Made by a program: the position numbers and the translations under genes
The notes under the pieces: generated by a model
What the model was told of the DNA's origin: nothing
The model's database searches: none
What the model saw: the letters and a program-made list of their open reading frames with translations, nothing else
In this document: piece after piece, positions 9,653 to 44,195 of the stretch
Layout of the letters: every line of letters starts with the position of its first letter
Position numbering within the stretch: the first letter of the stretch is position 1
Origin: Alkalibacterium sp.
Lineage (GTDB): Bacteria > Bacillota > Bacilli > Lactobacillales > Carnobacteriaceae_A
Assembly (NCBI GenBank): GCA_020832185.1
Contig: JAFIFE010000014.1
Span: 248,001 to 312,000, forward strand
Length of the DNA: 64,000 bases
Reading direction: 5' to 3'

Positions 9653-9848
9653 TAAGAATTCTGAGGTGTACGCGATGCCAAACTACGTGTTGACCGAACA
9701 TTGTATTAAAACACTGGGATTCAAAAGGGAGAATTGATGACATGCCTTATCACTTGGAAGTCAGATATTTTTCTGGTGAAACCCACCTGCTACTTGCGGG
9801 TTCAACCTAAACTGGCGTTCTACCGGCACCATCGGATTTCTTATACTT
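9653..9848 (+). ncRNA. ssrS: 6S RNA
   Basis: No convincing ORF covers the 384 bases between rarA and the stress protein. The 5' segment TTCTGAGGTGTACGC and the 3' segment CCGGCACCATCGGATTTC resemble the conserved ends of 6S RNA, and they pair to form a long closing stem (AAGAATTCTGAGGTG with CACCATCGGATTTCTT, with bulges). Inside, the strands can form an irregular rod with an open centre. 6S RNA binds the housekeeping RNA polymerase holoenzyme as a promoter mimic and lowers transcription in stationary phase. A near-consensus promoter precedes it and a perfect terminator follows. The ends are estimates. The call rests on context, end sequences and foldability, not on a covariance-model search. 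Confidence 0.75.
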
Positions 9849-10485: not shown

Positions 10486-11676
10486 TTATTTTCTGAATTT
10501 TTCAACGTCTCTTGCGATCATGACTTCTTCATCAGTTGGAATCAAGTAAACTTTCACTTTAGAATTCTCAGATGAAAGGTCTCTTTCTTTCCCACGAACA
10601 TTATTCTTCTCATCGTCGATTTCCGCTCCCAGGAACGTCAATCCATCAATTACATTTTTACGCGTATCAGAGCCATTTTCACCAATTCCAGCAGTAAATA
10701 CAATGGCATCTACACCATTCATTGTAGCTGCATATGACCCAATATATTTTCTAACACGATCTTCAAAGATACGTAAAGCAAGTTCTGCTTTTTCATCTGT
10801 AGCTTCAGCGTCTTCCAAGTCTCTCATGTCACTTGAAATACCAGATAATCCTTTTAATCCAGACTCGTTATTCAAAATATCAATCATATCGTTGATTGTT
10901 TTGATGCCTTCTTTTTCCATTAAGAATGGAAGCAATGAAGGATCGATATCTCCAGAACGAGTTCCCATAGTAACCCCAGCTAATGGTGTGAAGCCCATTG
11001 ATGTATCAACTGATTTCCCGCCGTCTACAGCTGTTATAGATGCACCGTTACCTAAGTGACACGTAATGATTTTAGTGTCCTCTACGGGCTTACCTAACAG
11101 TTCTGCAGCTCTTAGAGCTACATACTTGTGGCTAGTTCCGTGTGCTCCGTATTTACGGGCATTATGTTTCTCATAATACTCCATAGGAATACTATAAAGA
11201 TAGTTAACTTTTGGCATGGTCTGGTGGAAAGATGTATCAAAAACAGCCACACTAGTAATGTCCGGTAAAATTTTACGGAACGCTTTGATACCTGTTGCGT
11301 TTGCCGGGTTGTGAAGTGGTGCAAATTCAGATAAGTCTTCGATTTGTTTGATGACTTCATCCGTAACTAAAGCAGAATCTTTGAAAATTTCTCCTCCTGC
11401 AACCACACGGTGACCTACTCCAGTGATTTCGTTAAAATCAGCTAAAATGTTTAATTCTTTTAATTGCTCAAGAAGCATTTCTACCGCTACTTCATGATTA
11501 TCGATATCAACGACTGTCTCATATTTCTCTCCATCGTTGTATTTAATAGTGAAAATAGAATCATTCAAGCCAATTCTTTCTACGATCCCTGATGCTAAAA
11601 CTTCTTCCTCGGGCATATTATATAATTTCCATTTCAAACTAGAACTTCCTGCGTTGATTGCAATTGTTTTTGTCAT
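10486..11676 (-). CDS. ackA: Acetate kinase
   Basis: Interconverts acetyl phosphate plus ADP with acetate plus ATP, the ATP-yielding last step of acetate fermentation. The 396 residues start [14 protein letters not shown] (phosphate-binding N-terminus) and contain [11 protein letters not shown] near 180, [11 protein letters not shown] near 205, [19 protein letters not shown] near 230, and FTAGIGENG near 325. Full length for the family. It follows ytxK with a 19-base gap, and AAAGGAGCAATAG precedes the ATG, so the two are co-transcribed as in Bacillus. Confidence 0.97.
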
Positions 11677-11695
11677 ATCTATTGCTCCTTTGAAT

Positions 11696-12706
11696 TTAGT
11701 TGATTCCTTGTTCAGACTTCCAATTATTAATATCTGACAAGAATGTTTTGAACGCTTCTTTATTCGACAAGCTAGGTGAGGTGGCTATAAGCACTTCTTT
11801 AGCTTGTACACTCTTATCCCCTTTTTTCTGAACGATCAGAATCGATTTTTTTGACTGCTCATTCTTAAACCATTCAGTTGGGAGATGAATAATTCCTTGA
11901 ACATGACCGACACTCTGTATATGAGACAAGAGGTGTTTTACTTCCTCAGACTCAAATGTATTTGTAGGTAAAAGGTAAAACGCTAGTCCATTTTCTTTCA
12001 AATAGTTCAATCCTTGTTCTACAAGAAGAAAATGACTATAGGATTTGCCCTCTTCAAAAGCAGTATTAAACGAGTCATCTTCAAATTCTACGGGATAATA
12101 CCCCACAGGCAAGTCTGATACGATGATATCTACCGGATCGATCAGAAGTGGTTTCAATGCATCTTGATGCAGTAAATCGATCGGCATTTCCATCAAAGCT
12201 GACAGTGTGGATGCCAGTGAAATCAGGAGATCATCATTCTCAATGCCGGAAAACGAGACAGGTTTGTCTGTTTTGCTTAAAGATGTATAAATCGTATACA
12301 GTAAATTACCTGTTCCTACAGAAAAGTCAGCAATATGCGTCGGGCGATCAAATGTATAAAACAAATCGATCAGATAGCTGAATAATACGCCGATACCATC
12401 CGGAGTAGGCTGATGGTTAGGCTGCAGCAGATCTTCCTTGGCTGCTTTAATAAGGATAAGCTGTATCGCCTGTTTTTTTTCTTCAGGGGATAACGTACGG
12501 TAATCGATTTGACTATACATCTCACTCAGTTTGTCCTGAGTTTCAGCGCTTGGACGTCCATTTTCAACATGAACAGTTCCATTATCGATAAGGTTTTCTC
12601 CCGTTTCAATCAAAGCCTCTATAAATGTTGAATCGATTCCATCCTTTATAAGCAAAGATGATTCAAGTAATACGGAGTGAAACTTTTCTACATTAATTGT
12701 GTCCAA
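11696..12706 (-). CDS. ytxK: Class I SAM-dependent methyltransferase, YtxK/N6-adenine methylase-like
   Basis: A 336-residue protein of the YtxK family, related to type I restriction N6-adenine methylases but without a restriction partner here. The SAM-binding motif I region is [15 protein letters not shown] near residue 125. The catalytic DPPY-type motif IV is altered to SDLPVGYYP near 196. The target (DNA or RNA) is unknown. The start is TTG at 12706, about 10 bases after AAAGGAT; the first in-frame ATG would remove conserved-looking sequence. It heads the ytxK-ackA transcript, with a promoter about 110 bases upstream. Confidence 0.85.
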
Positions 12707-13926: not shown

Positions 13927-14062
13927 ACTTGTTGCACCTCCTTAAAATTATGAATAAAATGAGTTCATTTTATTCTTGCACTTAGACTCGCCATTATAAG
14001 TGGCCGAAGCTCTTTAAAACTTATATTTGAGCGGTTGTAGCTGTGGTGCGCACAAAGACAAC
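13927..14062 (-). promoter_or_regulatory. 5' leader of the rplU operon, candidate L21 leader element
   Basis: The stretch between the mapped promoter and the rplU start has no ORF. It contains pairable segments: CACTTA...TAAGTG, and a perfect inverted repeat AATAAAATGA-AC-TCATTTTATT (13951-13974) ending shortly before the ribosome site. Firmicutes rplU operons often carry an L21 leader thought to mediate autoregulation. That this is the same element is inferred from position and structure, not from an Rfam match. Confidence 0.55.
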
Positions 14063-18366: not shown

Positions 18367-18567
18367 TTAAGCTTTTTCTACGTTAGCAGCTTGAGGTCCG
18401 CGTGCGCCTTCTTCGATATCGAAAGTTACAGCTTGTCCTTCTTCTAATGATTTGAATCCTTCTTCGTTAATAGCTGAGAAATGTACAAATACGTCGTCTG
18501 CACCTTCGCGCTCGATAAATCCAAATCCTTTTTCTGCGTTAAACCATTTTACTGTACCGTTTTCCAT
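18367..18567 (-). CDS. Cold-shock protein, CspA family (copy 1)
   Basis: Single-stranded nucleic acid chaperone of 66 residues made of one OB fold. The RNP1 motif KGFGFIE and RNP2 motif DVFVHF are both intact. It begins [20 protein letters not shown] strong AGGAGG-type site precedes the ATG, and its promoter lies about 115 bases upstream, giving the long leader usual for cold-induced csp genes. A second, similar copy is at 40089-40289. Confidence 0.95.
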
Positions 18568-18758: not shown

Positions 18759-19442
18759 CTATATTTCCCCCATTTCTTTCAAGCTAACATACGAATCTTC
18801 ACCAATAATAAAATGATCCAGCAGTTCAATCCCAATCAGTTTTCCGGCTTCACTCATTCTTTTTGTAAATGAGAGATCGGCTTCTGACGGTTCCGGATTT
18901 CCTGAAGGGTGATTGTGAGCAATGATAATTCGGGCTGATGAGTACTTGATAGCTGCTTTGTAAATTTCCCTAGGGTGTGCAACTGACGAATTTAAGGACC
19001 CTTTGAAAATCGTTTCTTTCTTTATGATTTCGTTTTTTGTATTTAAGAACAGGGCCACGACCAGTTCCTGCTGCAGCCCATTTAATTCATTCATCAATAA
19101 TTTTCCTACATACTGACTTGAAGTGACTGTCCCTTCTTTACAAAGAGGGGCGTGAGCCATTCGTTTGCCTAGCTCGATCGATGCTAGAATTTCTATGGCT
19201 TTTGCTTTCCCTATTCCAGTAATCGACAGCAGTTCTTCGAGTGAGGCGTGCTTGAACGTGTATAAGTCATCAAAATGAGAAAAAACCTGCATACTTAATT
19301 GAAGTACATTGTAGTGACGTGTTCCTGTTCTGAGTAAAATGGCAAGTAGTTCATGATTGGCTAAAGCTGATGGTCCAAATTCTTCCATCCGTTCTCTTGG
19401 CCTTGAGTGAGTGGGTACGTCTATAAATTTTTGAGTCTGCAT
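18759..19442 (-). CDS. radC: RadC family JAB/MPN-domain protein
   Basis: A 227-residue protein with an N-terminal helix-hairpin-helix region (ELLSITGIGKAKAIEILASIELGKR near 65-90) and a C-terminal JAB1/MPN metalloprotease-like domain with AHNHPSGNPEPSEADLSFT near 175 (the H-x-H-x7-S-x2-D zinc signature). Despite the name, a repair role is not supported by modern work in other species, and the substrate is unknown. It is upstream of mreBCD, as in Bacillus. AAGGAGGAT precedes the ATG. Confidence 0.93.
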   Translation of the reverse strand: MQTQKFIDVPTHSRPRERMEEFGPSALANHELLAILLRTGTRHYNVLQLSMQVFSHFDDLYTFKHASLEELLSITGIGKAKAIEILASIELGKRMAHAPLCKEGTVTSSQYVGKLLMNELNGLQQELVVALFLNTKNEIIKKETIFKGSLNSSVAHPREIYKAAIKYSSARIIIAHNHPSGNPEPSEADLSFTKRMSEAGKLIGIELLDHFIIGEDSYVSLKEMGEI

Positions 19443-22843: not shown

Positions 22844-23092
22844 AAAAAAAGCATTCATCCTAAATATATTAGGACGAATGCTTCGCGGTACCACCTATTT
22901 TACGACAGTGAATCACATTGACTCCCTGTCGTCTCTCAGTGACAGCTATAATGGACTGTCAAGCCAGTCACAGATACTCCTAGTTCTCCGTGACAGTTCA
23001 CAAGCTACTTCATGATCAGTGTTATCAGGGATTTTCAGCAGACACCCATTCTCTTGGATCACACAGATCACTACTACTCTTGATCGTTACTT
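22844..23092 (-). promoter_or_regulatory. T-box riboswitch leader of valS
   Basis: Minus-strand leader between tpx and valS. It contains the T-box core AGGTGGTACCGCG (22884-22896), which pairs with uncharged tRNA acceptor ends. A terminator stem follows (GCATTCGTCCTAA... and complement, 22851-22881), then T7. Upstream, the specifier strand reads ATGAA-GTA-G, giving a GTA valine specifier at 23006-23008, with the GAA before it as in the specifier-loop motif. The specifier is my reading, not a model alignment. I found no convincing promoter; it may overlap the end of tpx. Confidence 0.9.
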
Positions 23093-23102
23093 TCATTTTT
23101 AT

Positions 23103-30776: not shown

Positions 30777-31334
30777 TTAATTCAAATCGATTTTTCTAAT
30801 GACTTGGGCAGGAACACCCGCGATAACCACATTGTCAGGAAACGATTTAGTGACGACTGCCCCCGCTGCCACTACACAGTTGTCTCCCAGTGTCACGCCT
30901 CCAATAATAGTCGCATTAGTGCCGACCCAGCAGTTGTTTCCGATAGTGATTGGTCTGCCGAATTCCTGTCCTGAATTTCTTTCATCCGGGTTTAATGGAT
31001 GCTCTGGTGTAACCATACTGACACCTGGACCAAGCATTGCATTTCTGCCGATCGTAATAGGACACACATCAAGAAATACACAATTAAAGTTAGCGTAAAA
31101 GTTATCTCCTACATGGATATTATACCCATAGTCCACTCTTAAAGAAGGCTCTACTGTAATAGTCTCACCTACAGAGCCAAAGATCGTCTTGATCTGTTTT
31201 CTTCTTTCCACATCAGCCTGTGCCTTGTTATAACGCTCCGCTTTATCGTGACCACTTGTCCTATCCCTGATTAATTCAGGATCACTTGGTCGGTACAACT
31301 CTCCTGCAACCATTTTTTCTTTTTCCGTTTTCAT
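30777..31334 (-). CDS. Sugar O-acetyltransferase, maltose acetyltransferase-like
   Basis: A 185-residue left-handed beta-helix acyltransferase. It has the N-terminal MAT domain (KEKMVAGELYRPSDPELIRDR), hexapeptide repeats from about residue 60 (ITVEPSLRVDYGYNIHVGDNFYAN), the catalytic histidine in MVTPEHPLNPDERN near 112, and the terminal coils TIGNNCWVGTNATIIGGVTLGDN. Related enzymes transfer acetyl from acetyl-CoA to maltose, glucose or galactosides; the true acceptor is unknown. It follows the decayed DUF1054 gene by 17 bases and may share its transcript. No terminator is evident after it. Confidence 0.88.
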   Translation of the reverse strand: MKTEKEKMVAGELYRPSDPELIRDRTSGHDKAERYNKAQADVERRKQIKTIFGSVGETITVEPSLRVDYGYNIHVGDNFYANFNCVFLDVCPITIGRNAMLGPGVSMVTPEHPLNPDERNSGQEFGRPITIGNNCWVGTNATIIGGVTLGDNCVVAAGAVVTKSFPDNVVIAGVPAQVIRKIDLN

Positions 31335-31351: not shown

Positions 31352-31987
31352 TTAATGAGTTTCCTGACTGAAATAAACAGTCAGTAATTGTCTGTAAATA
31401 GGAAGAAGATTATCCAGTGTCTCTTCAAAGAACCGACGCTGCAACTCTTTCTGACCCATTTCGCTACTTTGTTGTGTTAATACTTTGCCAATCATGAATT
31501 CGCCTTTTTTACCTGGATCAGCAGATTTAATGTCTTTTCGATAACATCAGGAGATGCCGGTTCAATATCTGGACGAGTATGATCGCCGGACACATAAAAA
31601 TCTTCTGATAAATGACTGAACGCTTTTTTATTCTCAAGTAAATAAGTCCCCATTCCTTTTTCATGTTTAGGATTATCTATTAGTGATAAGAACATAAAAA
31701 TGTGATCAGTGTTAATGCCTAATTGTATGTGTGGATACTTTTTGTACCCTCTTTTATTCCCGTTAAAAGCAGACCATGTTGATTCGGGAGGGTTGGTCGA
31801 GCGTCTTCTATGCTGGGCAATATGAAACTCCCCTTCAAAGTCGGTATGTGCATTGACTCTTTCTATAAAGGTGTCACCCACTGACTGAAAGACTGGTTGA
31901 ATTTTTTTCTCTAATCAGCGCCATTCTTTCCTCAAGCCCTTCAACTGTAAAAATAGTAAAGTCCTCTTGTTTGAAATAATGTTCTAT
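31352..31987 (-). pseudogene. DUF1054 (YktB-like) gene broken by two frameshifts
   Basis: The longest intact piece (31492-31881) reads RRRSTNPPESTWSAFNGNKRGYKKYPHIQ, a DUF1054 core. The N-terminus lies upstream in another frame (EHYFKQEDFTIFTVEGLEERMALIRE) and joins the core if one A is removed from an A7 run (31902-31908). The C-terminus (EFMIGKVLTQQSSEMGQKEL...LLPIYRQLL, stop at 31352) joins if one A is added to an A6 run (31505-31510). The restored product is about 211 residues, the usual family length. The codon at the expected start, five bases after AGGAGG, is ATA (31985-31987), not ATG. Three defects favour a true pseudogene, but both indels are in homopolymers, so sequencing error or slippage remains possible. 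Confidence 0.8.
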
Positions 31988-32023
31988 AATGTCCTCCTAA
32001 TAGGTCATTATTATCTATTGTAG

Positions 32024-32075: not shown

Positions 32076-33071
32076 CTATTCGATTGCTTCACTAACTTCC
32101 TGCATCATGATTTTGAATGTTTCTACTCCACCTTCTGCCAGATACCACGCTGAAGGGGATAAATAATGGATCGAATCGCTTTGATAAGCGCTAGTCTGCT
32201 GAATGATCGGATTCTCTTCAACTGGCTCGGCTGTCGCATCTCCGCCAATTGCAGCTGTACGATCAATCAGGAAAATAATATCTGGATCCATTGATAGAAC
32301 ATACTCATAGGCTATCTCCATCCCATGATTCGATTGCTCTATGCCATCATCTACCGGCTGGAATCCGAATGCATCATGCACCACACCAAAACGGGATCCA
32401 GGACCATAAGCAGATAATGATCCTTCGTTGTACATGGAGACAAGCGTTGTCAGCTCAGATGCCTCCGCACGTGCATTTAATTCGCTCAATTGCGTTTCCA
32501 GTTCTTCTATGATGTCATCTGACGTGTTCCCTAAATCAAAAATATCGGATAATCGAGTCAAATTACTGCTGATCGATTCAATATACTGGGTAGAGTCGTT
32601 ACTTAAATCAATTGTAGGGGCAATTTCAGCCAGGTCGTCATAGGCAGCACTGGAACGCCCTGCCACTATAATCAAATCAGGTTGCGCGGCATTCGTTACC
32701 TCCATATCGATTTCAAAGAAACTTCCCGCAACGTCTGTGTCCTCAAAATAAGAAAGATGCTCAGGCAGATTAGGCGAGGCTGTTAATACGACCCGATCTT
32801 CCAATCCCAATGCAGCCATATTGTCGAGCTGGCCATTATCGAAAACGGCAACTCGTTCAGGATCAAGCGGGACTTCAACATTATTTCCAACCGCATCTTC
32901 TATAGTCACTGTGGCGTTTTGCGTTTCGTTATCTGGCACACTTTCTTCTATCTGCTCTACTTCGTTGTCTAGATTGGCCCCTTCATTTTCTGTTCCTTGA
33001 CTATCTCCGCATCCAGCTAATACAAGTGCACTGAATAATACGCCCCATCTTAATAGATATGTTCTGTTCAT
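32076..33071 (-). CDS. Siderophore ABC transporter substrate-binding lipoprotein, YclQ/FatB-like
   Basis: Extracytoplasmic receptor of a ferric-siderophore importer. The 331 residues start with a lipoprotein signal (RWGVLFSALVLAGCG, lipobox LAGC with Cys near 21), then an acidic linker, then a periplasmic-binding fold with VEVPLDPERVAVFDNGQLDNMAALG near 60 and AQPDLIIVAGRSSAAYDDL near 130. These resemble the petrobactin receptor YclQ of Bacillus. The ATG at 33071 follows AGGAGATAAAC; earlier in-frame codons lie inside the ATPase gene. Last gene of a Fur-boxed four-gene operon. Confidence 0.9.
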   Translation of the reverse strand: MNRTYLLRWGVLFSALVLAGCGDSQGTENEGANLDNEVEQIEESVPDNETQNATVTIEDAVGNNVEVPLDPERVAVFDNGQLDNMAALGLEDRVVLTASPNLPEHLSYFEDTDVAGSFFEIDMEVTNAAQPDLIIVAGRSSAAYDDLAEIAPTIDLSNDSTQYIESISSNLTRLSDIFDLGNTSDDIIEELETQLSELNARAEASELTTLVSMYNEGSLSAYGPGSRFGVVHDAFGFQPVDDGIEQSNHGMEIAYEYVLSMDPDIIFLIDRTAAIGGDATAEPVEENPIIQQTSAYQSDSIHYLSPSAWYLAEGGVETFKIMMQEVSEAIE

Positions 33072-33094
33072 TTGTTTATCTCCTATTCTATTTT

Positions 33095-33853
33095 TTAAGT
33101 GTAGTACAAACAATATTTTGTTCCTTTACTTTCAATAATCTCTACATCCATCCCGTATAAATCATCCAGAACGGATTTCGTTATCATGTCATCTGTGGAT
33201 CCTGATGCAAATAGTTTTCCATCTTTCATGGCGATAATATTATCGGCATAGCTTGCCGCGAAGTTGATATCGTGAACAACTGTAATGACTGTTTTCCCCA
33301 GCTCATCCACCAAACGACGCAGCGTGCTCATCATTTGAACACCAAAACTCATATCAAGATTATTCAGGGGTTCATCCAGCAGAATATAATCTGTATCCTG
33401 GCACAGAACCATTGCTATCAATGCTCGTTGAAGCTGTCCACCTGAAAGTGTATCGATGTAACGTTTCTGTAAGTCTATTAATCCTAAGTAATTTAGAGAA
33501 TTATCGATCACTTCATGACAGTGAGCGTTAAGGCGCCCTTTAGTATAGGGAAACCTGCCGAACGAGACTAGTTCTCTAACAGTCAGTCTGACATTCATCT
33601 GATTGGTTTGTTTCAGCACTGATAAACGCTTGGCAAATTCTCCCCTTTTCCATGTTTTGACCTCATTTCCATCTATATATATTTGTCCGGTATCTTGAGA
33701 AATCAATCGACTGATCATTTCCAGCAGTGTACTCTTTCCGGCTCCATTTGGACCAATACATGCAGTCAGCTTTCCCTTTTCAATCGAAAGACTGACGTTG
33801 TCTACTACAATGGTTTCGCCATAGCTTTTCGTTAGATTTTCGACTTCCATCAT
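33095..33853 (-). CDS. Siderophore ABC transporter ATP-binding protein, YclP-like
   Basis: Cytoplasmic ATPase of the iron importer (252 residues). It has Walker A GPNGAGKSTLL near 34, Q-loop LKQTNQMN near 80, ABC signature LSGGQLQRALIAM near 137, Walker B YILLDEPLNNLD near 157, and H-loop VVHD near 193. FecE/FhuC-type. It lies two bases after the permease stop. The ligand cannot be read from this subunit; operon order suggests a petrobactin-like catecholate siderophore. Confidence 0.93.
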   Translation of the reverse strand: MMEVENLTKSYGETIVVDNVSLSIEKGKLTACIGPNGAGKSTLLEMISRLISQDTGQIYIDGNEVKTWKRGEFAKRLSVLKQTNQMNVRLTVRELVSFGRFPYTKGRLNAHCHEVIDNSLNYLGLIDLQKRYIDTLSGGQLQRALIAMVLCQDTDYILLDEPLNNLDMSFGVQMMSTLRRLVDELGKTVITVVHDINFAASYADNIIAMKDGKLFASGSTDDMITKSVLDDLYGMDVEIIESKGTKYCLYYT

Positions 33854-40052: not shown

Positions 40053-40090
40053 AAAAACGTCCTCAAGATTTCTCTTGAGGACGTTTTTTT
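40053..40090. terminator. Bidirectional terminator between the GlsB-type gene and csp copy 2
   Basis: Hairpin AAAAACGTCCTCAAGA-TTTC-TCTTGAGGACGTTTTTTT, with flanking A and T runs so that it serves both convergent genes. It overlaps the last bases of the cold-shock gene stop codon. Confidence 0.88.
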
Positions 40091-40289
40091 ATATTTTAGT
40101 TACGTTAGCTGCTTGAGGACCTCTGTCTCCATCAACAATCTCGAATTCTACTTCTTGACCGTCATCTAAAGATTTATATCCTTCGCTGTCGATTGAACTG
40201 AAATGTACAAATACATCTTCATGTCCCTCAACTTCAATAAATCCGAAGCCTTTTTCAGCGTTAAACCATTTTACTTTACCTTGTACCAT
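40089..40289 (-). CDS. Cold-shock protein, CspA family (copy 2)
   Basis: A 66-residue single OB-fold RNA chaperone with intact RNP1 (KGFGFIE) and RNP2 (DVFVHF). It differs from copy 1 at about a quarter of positions (for example [23 protein letters not shown]). It is monocistronic, with its own strong promoter, a leader of about 93 bases and AGGAGGAAT before the ATG. Confidence 0.95.
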
Positions 40290-43299: not shown

Positions 43300-43491
43300 T
43301 TATATTAAAAAAAGACCTCATCCTAAAGGACGAAATCTTCGCGGTACCACCTTAATTCGAAAAACAGAGAATCCTGCTTTTCCTTAATCTCCTTAACGCA
43401 GAGCGACGCCGCAGCTTACTTGATTCAGCAACAGTTTACTTGAATGATTATTTCAATTTCTACTTATCAACTCTCAGCGCACGTTGACTCT
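43300..43491 (-). promoter_or_regulatory. T-box riboswitch leader of ileS
   Basis: Contains the T-box core GGTGGTACCGCG (about 43341-43352 on the plus strand) followed by a terminator stem (ATTTCGTCC...GGATGAGGT) and T7 (about 43309-43338). Upstream, the specifier strand reads GCTGA-ATC-A, giving an ATC isoleucine specifier at 43422-43424, consistent with the downstream gene. The specifier assignment is by eye. Confidence 0.9.
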
Positions 43492-43497
43492 CTGTAA

Positions 43498-43527
43498 AGT
43501 ATCCATTAAAATCATGTTTCAAGTCAA
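43498..43527 (-). promoter_or_regulatory. Promoter of the ileS T-box transcript
   Basis: Minus strand: -35 TTGACT (43522-43527), 18 bases, -10 GATACT (43498-43503). It starts six bases after the divIVA stop, so ileS has its own start as well as any read-through from divIVA. Confidence 0.6.
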
Positions 43528-43532
43528 AAATT

Positions 43533-44195
43533 TTATTTTACTTCAGGCAGTTCTACTGCTGGTATCATGCCTTCTTCATAGTCCTGTGAATCTGTTTCTT
43601 CCATTTCTGACCCAGCATGGCTATCTTCTTCGCTGTTCTTGTTATCCAGTTCTTCTTTGACTTCATTTAATGTATCTGTTTCAGGTTGTTCTGAGGTAGG
43701 TGGTTGTAAGATATCATCCCACTCATCTTTTTTTACTAGTTCCAACTGTGATTCGATCATTAATTGTAGTCTTTGTCTGAAAATTCGACTTTGTTTTCTT
43801 AATTCTTCTGTTTCCTGTTCGATACGTCTGGCTTTGTAGACAGCATCTTTGAGTAGTTCATCAGCGTGATTCTCAGCTTCGTGCTGGACATTACCAGCTT
43901 CAGTCTTCGCTTCTTTCGTAATCATTTCTGCTTCTTTCTCAGCGTTCTTTTTCAAACGGTCTGCAGCATCTTGAGCAACAAGAATCGATTTATTTAATGA
44001 GTCATGCATCTGATCATAGTTTGCCAGTTTTTCTTCAGCAAAACTTAGCTTCTTTTCTGCTTCTTTCTTTTGTTTCAAAAGCATTTCATAATCTTTAATG
44101 ATCTGATCAAGATAGTCATTTACTTCATCCTGGTCATACCCTCTCATCTTGACGGGGAATTCTTTATTATGTATATCCAGTGGTGTCAATGCCAT
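43533..44195 (-). CDS. divIVA: Cell-division protein DivIVA
   Basis: Coiled-coil protein that binds negatively curved membrane at septa and poles. The 220 residues start with the conserved lipid-binding domain (LTPLDIHNKEFPVKMRGYDQDEVNDYLD), followed by a long coiled coil (about 35-150) and an acidic, Glu/Ser-rich tail (HAGSEMEETDSQDYEEG). In Bacillus DivIVA positions MinCD via MinJ; MinCD are also encoded in this window. Last gene of the dcw series before the ileS T-box. Confidence 0.95.
   Translation of the reverse strand: MALTPLDIHNKEFPVKMRGYDQDEVNDYLDQIIKDYEMLLKQKKEAEKKLSFAEEKLANYDQMHDSLNKSILVAQDAADRLKKNAEKEAEMITKEAKTEAGNVQHEAENHADELLKDAVYKARRIEQETEELRKQSRIFRQRLQLMIESQLELVKKDEWDDILQPPTSEQPETDTLNEVKEELDNKNSEEDSHAGSEMEETDSQDYEEGMIPAVELPEVK

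Follow-up and report, generated by a model that had tools for sequence, protein, structure and literature searches.

The DUF1054 (YktB) gene on the minus strand at 31352-31987 of the window (the whole 64-kb stretch of DNA analysed here, C1:248001-312000 of a 2.64 Mb draft genome in 28 contigs, G000) is very probably a recent, ordinary pseudogene of a dispensable gene. What remains of the gene can be read directly as three frame pieces. The start codon would have been lost by substitution, and the frame by the gain of one base at one A run and the loss of one base at another, for which replication slippage would be the simplest route. The parts of the locus, in the direction of reading, are as follows.

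32076..33113, minus strand: intact gene for a periplasmic binding protein of an ABC transporter, upstream (Pfam PF01497)
31993..31998, minus strand: Shine-Dalgarno-like AGGAGG, kept, 5 bases before the ATA (direct reading)
31985..31987, minus strand: ATA in the start-codon position (direct reading and sister alignment)
31907..31984, minus strand: first remnant, EHYFKQEDF...IRE (direct reading, sister alignment)
31902..31908, minus strand: A7 run, first frame break (frame change relative to sister species)
31510..31902, minus strand: second remnant, IQPVFQ...QV, in another frame (PF06335, E 1e-36)
31505..31510, minus strand: A6 run, second frame break (VKK in the second frame, GEFMIG in the first)
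31352..31504, minus strand: third remnant, GEFMIG...QETH and TAA, back in the first frame (direct reading, sister alignment); coding part 31504-31355, TAA at 31354-31352
30777..31334, minus strand: intact gene of the maltose acetyltransferase type (Mac and hexapeptide), downstream, 17 bases after the remnant (Pfam PF12464, PF00132)

The middle piece, entered by the ORF caller as 129 aa at 31492-31881, matches DUF1054 (Pfam PF06335) with 127.2 bits against a cut-off of 27, covering 33-163 of the 198 profile positions. With 20.8 bits (E 4e-4) the tail piece stays under that cut-off, a weak match to the same family. A family search of the window's own genome gave two matches at this locus, both containing stops, with 148.7 bits for the locus. 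The copy therefore scores over the family cut-off while its domain lies in three pieces rather than in a single open frame; that is, it is a broken member of DUF1054 and not a working one. A preliminary description had proposed a protein of about 211 residues, which fits the lengths of the intact sister proteins (210-213 residues).

The comparison with relatives that the same description had called for was carried out at the level of sister species. We searched 60 genomes, the window's own included, 12 of them from the genus Alkalibacterium. A full-length, stop-free DUF1054 match is present in 39 of the 60 and a match of any kind in 41 (G000 counted). Within the genus, eight of the 12 genomes carry an intact full-length gene (G001-G005, G007, G009 and G010), among them G003, G007 and G010, taken as A. 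olivapovliticus DSM 13175 (the nearest relative of the window species), A. pelagium DSM 19183 and A. thalassium DSM 19181. In the last two the gene has 212 residues from the ATG after the ribosome-binding site (219 from an upstream ATG). The eight intact genes were aligned together with three other family members; all 11 relatives have IRxxIQP spanning the site of the first break and VKK(G/A)E spanning that of the second, and the eight sister genes read both motifs in a single frame. None of the disabling lesions of the window gene has a counterpart at the same place in the eight intact sister copies. The position aligned to the window's ATA is ATG in six of these genes and GTG in two, and GGAGG precedes the start in six of the eight.

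The three pieces in order, the A7 and A6 breaks and the ATA five bases after AGGAGG had all been named before, and they hold base for base; the breaks stay where they were placed because the sister genes read through both sites in one frame. A second break further upstream was considered, given the first-frame translation RKDIKSADPGKK upstream of GEFMIG, and was rejected, as sister proteins of the VKKGEF/VKKAEF kind place the break at the A6 run. The frameshifts had also been called 'compensating'. This is right as arithmetic, since the net frame is regained, but the second shift does not rescue the first, because the long stretch between the shifts keeps the relatives' frame only for a ribosome that has already shifted. 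The first remnant's frame, if continued, stops at TGA 31876-31874. With ATA at the start and codon 38 of the first frame being this stop, a full-length protein would not be expected from the remnant. That the ribosome-binding site and leader are still there may be due to the acetyltransferase gene 17 bases downstream, which would be served by the same transcript and into which transcription may run through the remnant. A consensus promoter scan found two sites against a shuffle mean of 2.3 (no excess), and the same scan found no terminator-like site. We infer that the living organism's genome carries the lesions, that the locus yields no functional protein and that selection ceased before the lesions gathered; any order of the lesions would be inferred likewise.

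A frame break at a homopolymer invites the suspicion of sequencing error, and comparison with a sister species offers a way to separate gene decay from general homopolymer error without reads. The stretch 154.5-349.7 kb of contig 1 of G000 is collinear with G003 contig 2, at 77-82% DNA identity within the collinear blocks. Of 183 A. olivapovliticus ORFs of at least 90 aa compared with G000, 181 have a counterpart, 16 were flagged, and DUF1054 alone is clearly split between frames. Twelve of the 16 flags show stops without a change of frame. In ten of them the stops fall inside the opening 40 codons of the match, which was taken as a start site placed too far upstream; in the other two they fall among the final five. 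Two of the ten were looked at more closely: flag 112139 is a 66-aa cold-shock-type protein (named from reading the sequence) that is whole in the window at 18367-18567, and at flag 83702 the stops are soon followed by a Met, with the two proteins in agreement from there on. Three further flags were judged to be chance: 165631, of 112 aa with five stops; 180091, of 103 aa and split over two frames at 53 and 77% identity; and the upstream extension of 84591.

The reverse test, with 182 G000 ORFs against G003, flagged 12, and the stop positions were inspected for six. Matches of at least 40% identity were found for 183 of 185 A. pelagium ORFs (seven flagged) and for 77 of 79 A. thalassium ORFs (three flagged). 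These flags comprise DUF1054 in both species, one over-extended start and seven plus-strand ORFs judged spurious, six of which overlap a minus-strand G000 ORF; DUF1054 is the only one judged to be a really broken gene, going by these sequence comparisons. General sequence error thus appears unlikely, because the 195-kb collinear block showed no clear frameshift other than that of DUF1054. The earlier statements that the other long genes are intact and that general error is improbable hold as far as tested, over 195 kb and 181 sister-compared ORFs.

The two A. olivapovliticus ORFs that found no match sit in an insert carrying a reverse transcriptase gene. This 2.8 kb insert (G003:C2 112678-115469), in the 3' part of radC, encodes a 641-aa reverse transcriptase (RVT_1) and looks like a group II intron insertion; radC in the window (18759-19442, 227 aa) is uninterrupted, and the insert point corresponds to 18905-18910. 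The window also holds two similar 66-aa genes of the cold-shock type, 18367-18567 and 40089-40289 (minus strand), again named from reading the sequence, and their similarity accounts for cross-matches of about 205 bases in the comparison of G000 with G003. Four RNA elements of the window score at or above the Rfam gathering threshold: a pair of T-box leaders, 6S RNA and an L21 leader (in the order of listing, 22867-23096 minus, 43323-43536 minus, 9655-9842 plus and 13974-14046 minus), and ARAGORN found no tRNA in the 64 kb.

The state of the remnants bears on the age of the break. With the three pieces taken separately (206 codons in total), private amino-acid changes number 19 in G000 and 19 in G003 when A. 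pelagium is the outgroup, and 18 and 17 with A. thalassium. Piece by piece, with A. pelagium as the outgroup, the counts for G000 and G003 are 1 and 6, 9 and 9, and 9 and 4; changes in the tail piece lean towards G000, on small numbers. The ratio pN/pS is 0.30 for G000-G003 and 0.31 for G000-G007, against 0.28 for the intact pair G003-G007. At only two of the 206 residues do the remnants differ where all 11 aligned relatives agree, which is within the range of 0-8 that those relatives show when each is left out in turn. The remnants look as constrained as a working gene, a result that sequence errors or expression by slippage would also give. DUF1054 is generally fast-evolving in these genomes: its amino-acid difference for G000-G003 is 31.6%, at the 97th percentile of 140 trios whose median is 10.9%, and that for G003-G007 is 35.4%, at the 91st percentile, where the median is 20.8%. 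The ratio of the two differences, 0.89, lies at the 92nd percentile of 134, and pN/pS for G000-G003 at the 97th. High percentiles such as these could hint at acceleration in either lineage, although the private counts do not favour G000. Synonymous sites are near saturation (pS 0.70), and many more replacements would be expected had the gene drifted neutrally for long, so the gene was probably constrained for most of its lineage and died recently. Relaxed constraint would be expected of an old pseudogene only; the relaxation test itself lends the pseudogene reading no support, because a recent event would show no relaxation.

Three choices had been named at the outset (recent pseudogenisation, slippage-dependent expression and two local errors), and the sister comparison best supports the first. 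Local sequencing or assembly errors would make the gene really intact, with two homopolymer miscounts and one base error. Both breaks do lie at A runs, a usual site of indel error, the assembly is a draft of 28 contigs, and the remnants lack relaxed constraint. Against this, the ATA is not explicable as a homopolymer error, and the block's G000 ORFs hold 348 A/T runs of at least six bases (in 177,735 bases) with no other clear frameshift in the 181 sister-compared ORFs. Moreover, when two run-indels are placed randomly over 182 genes, both fall in one gene in 0.65% of cases. With three changes in a single gene and the rest of about 178 kb of coding sequence showing no clear break, local error is possible but unlikely. 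The position of both breaks at A runs, the retained ribosome-binding site and the unrelaxed constraint would equally suit expression in which RNA polymerase or the ribosome slips at A7 and then at A6, with ATA as a weak start and little protein made. Apparently frameshifted genes that are expected to yield normal protein through slippage at A runs do exist, according to an excerpt of PMC1088944. The cases described in that excerpt involve some 9 A in a row (in certain IS elements 8-10) against 7 and 6 here, and insertions during transcription increase exponentially with run length (PMC5574713, in excerpt). Short runs, two independent corrections in opposite directions, sister genes that are single-frame at both runs and the want of a normal start make such expression very improbable, and the sequence gives it no positive support.

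The runs themselves vary among relatives, with no split conserved across them: all eight sister genes are single-frame at both. The longest A run in the VKK codons is six in 26 and seven in six of the 51 relatives scored, and in the RxxI codons it is at most six in the 46 scored. These figures come from 65 loci found by a contig scan with an alignment of family proteins (the same scan queried with the 129-aa middle piece alone gave zero matches); the frame was set by the GYKK motif, present at 64 of the 65 loci, and loci without the motif of a site were left out. A further idea is that the A runs form a reversible on/off switch by replication slippage (a contingency locus), or that leaky slippage and the ATA start together give a trace of YktB. 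If true, it would explain the constrained look of the remnants, though we regard it as highly doubtful. Finally, the middle ORF, open from GTG 31881 and covering most of the family profile, might be a truncated working product of 129 aa. By alignment this product would begin near residue 36. Set against the modelled fold, it would be without the first helix, would keep only the second half of the long helix 18-48 and would end before strand 164-170 and helix 180-207; the whole domain is present in 39 relatives, and a truncated working product is hardly credible.

A recent pseudogene also agrees with the record of the genus, where an intact DUF1054 gene is missing from four of the 12 genomes (G000, G006, G008 and G011). 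In G008 the gene breaks off behind the ...TTW codons (residue ~72), where DNA with phage-family matches takes over; a protein search of that genome found no further piece of the gene, and DUF1054 may here contain a prophage attachment site whose other end is unassembled. The right end of the contig (G008:C63, L039:10180-12438) has a phrog_121 match and a repressor-like gene at 11585-12001. Protein searches of G006 and G011 (the latter 89% complete) gave no DUF1054 match at E<=1. A DNA match in G011 is leader-like sequence before another gene and, with no match in the protein search, was not counted as a copy. Both genomes keep a nucleosidase gene with a transporter permease gene adjoining (L162 and L163); in the window that nucleosidase gene lies upstream of the transporter/DUF1054 region. 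Several routes of loss appear in Alkalibacterium (frame breaks, a prophage-like insertion and no detectable copy), and the repeated loss suggests that DUF1054 is dispensable in the genus. The window gene adds one case to the losses of a widespread gene and has little significance alone. A literature search on Alkalibacterium and pseudogenes returned nothing on the DUF1054 gene, judged by title.

The known members of DUF1054/PF06335 include YktB of Bacillus subtilis (UPF0637) and the structures PDB 2a8e and PDB 3mqz. A model of the intact A. olivapovliticus protein (pLDDT 95) superposes on 2a8e with Z 28.3 over 204 residues at 1.6 A and also matches 3mqz; the best solved chain beyond the family reaches Z 7.1, a level that the comparison tool rates as common and from which no function was read. 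The conserved histidines of HIAQH and DHT suggest a putative catalytic site. In the excerpts available of three sources, YktB is described as 'unknown' (PMC4409812), the DUF1054 protein Lmo1065 is listed among penicillin G-inducible genes, with its function given as unknown (PMC3534079), and YktB is called 'DpsA' (PMC1976550); the last is probably a slip in gene name, because 'DpsA' does not fit the PF06335 family.

The window copy shares with this family its sequence and the order of the conserved blocks (IQPVFQ, HIAQHRRR, RGYKKYPH, DHT and VKKGE) and differs in its three frame pieces and the loss of a normal start. With the 'pseudo-pseudogenes' that are possibly expressed by transcriptional slippage, as an excerpt of PMC1088944 presents them, it has in common a frame break at an A run; in contrast, its runs are shorter and it has two breaks and no normal start. 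The intact gene of A. olivapovliticus DSM 13175 (L096/L035) stands at the same place in the collinear block and is identical to the window remnants at 141 of 206 compared residues, whereas it is one open frame of 210 codons with an ATG start.
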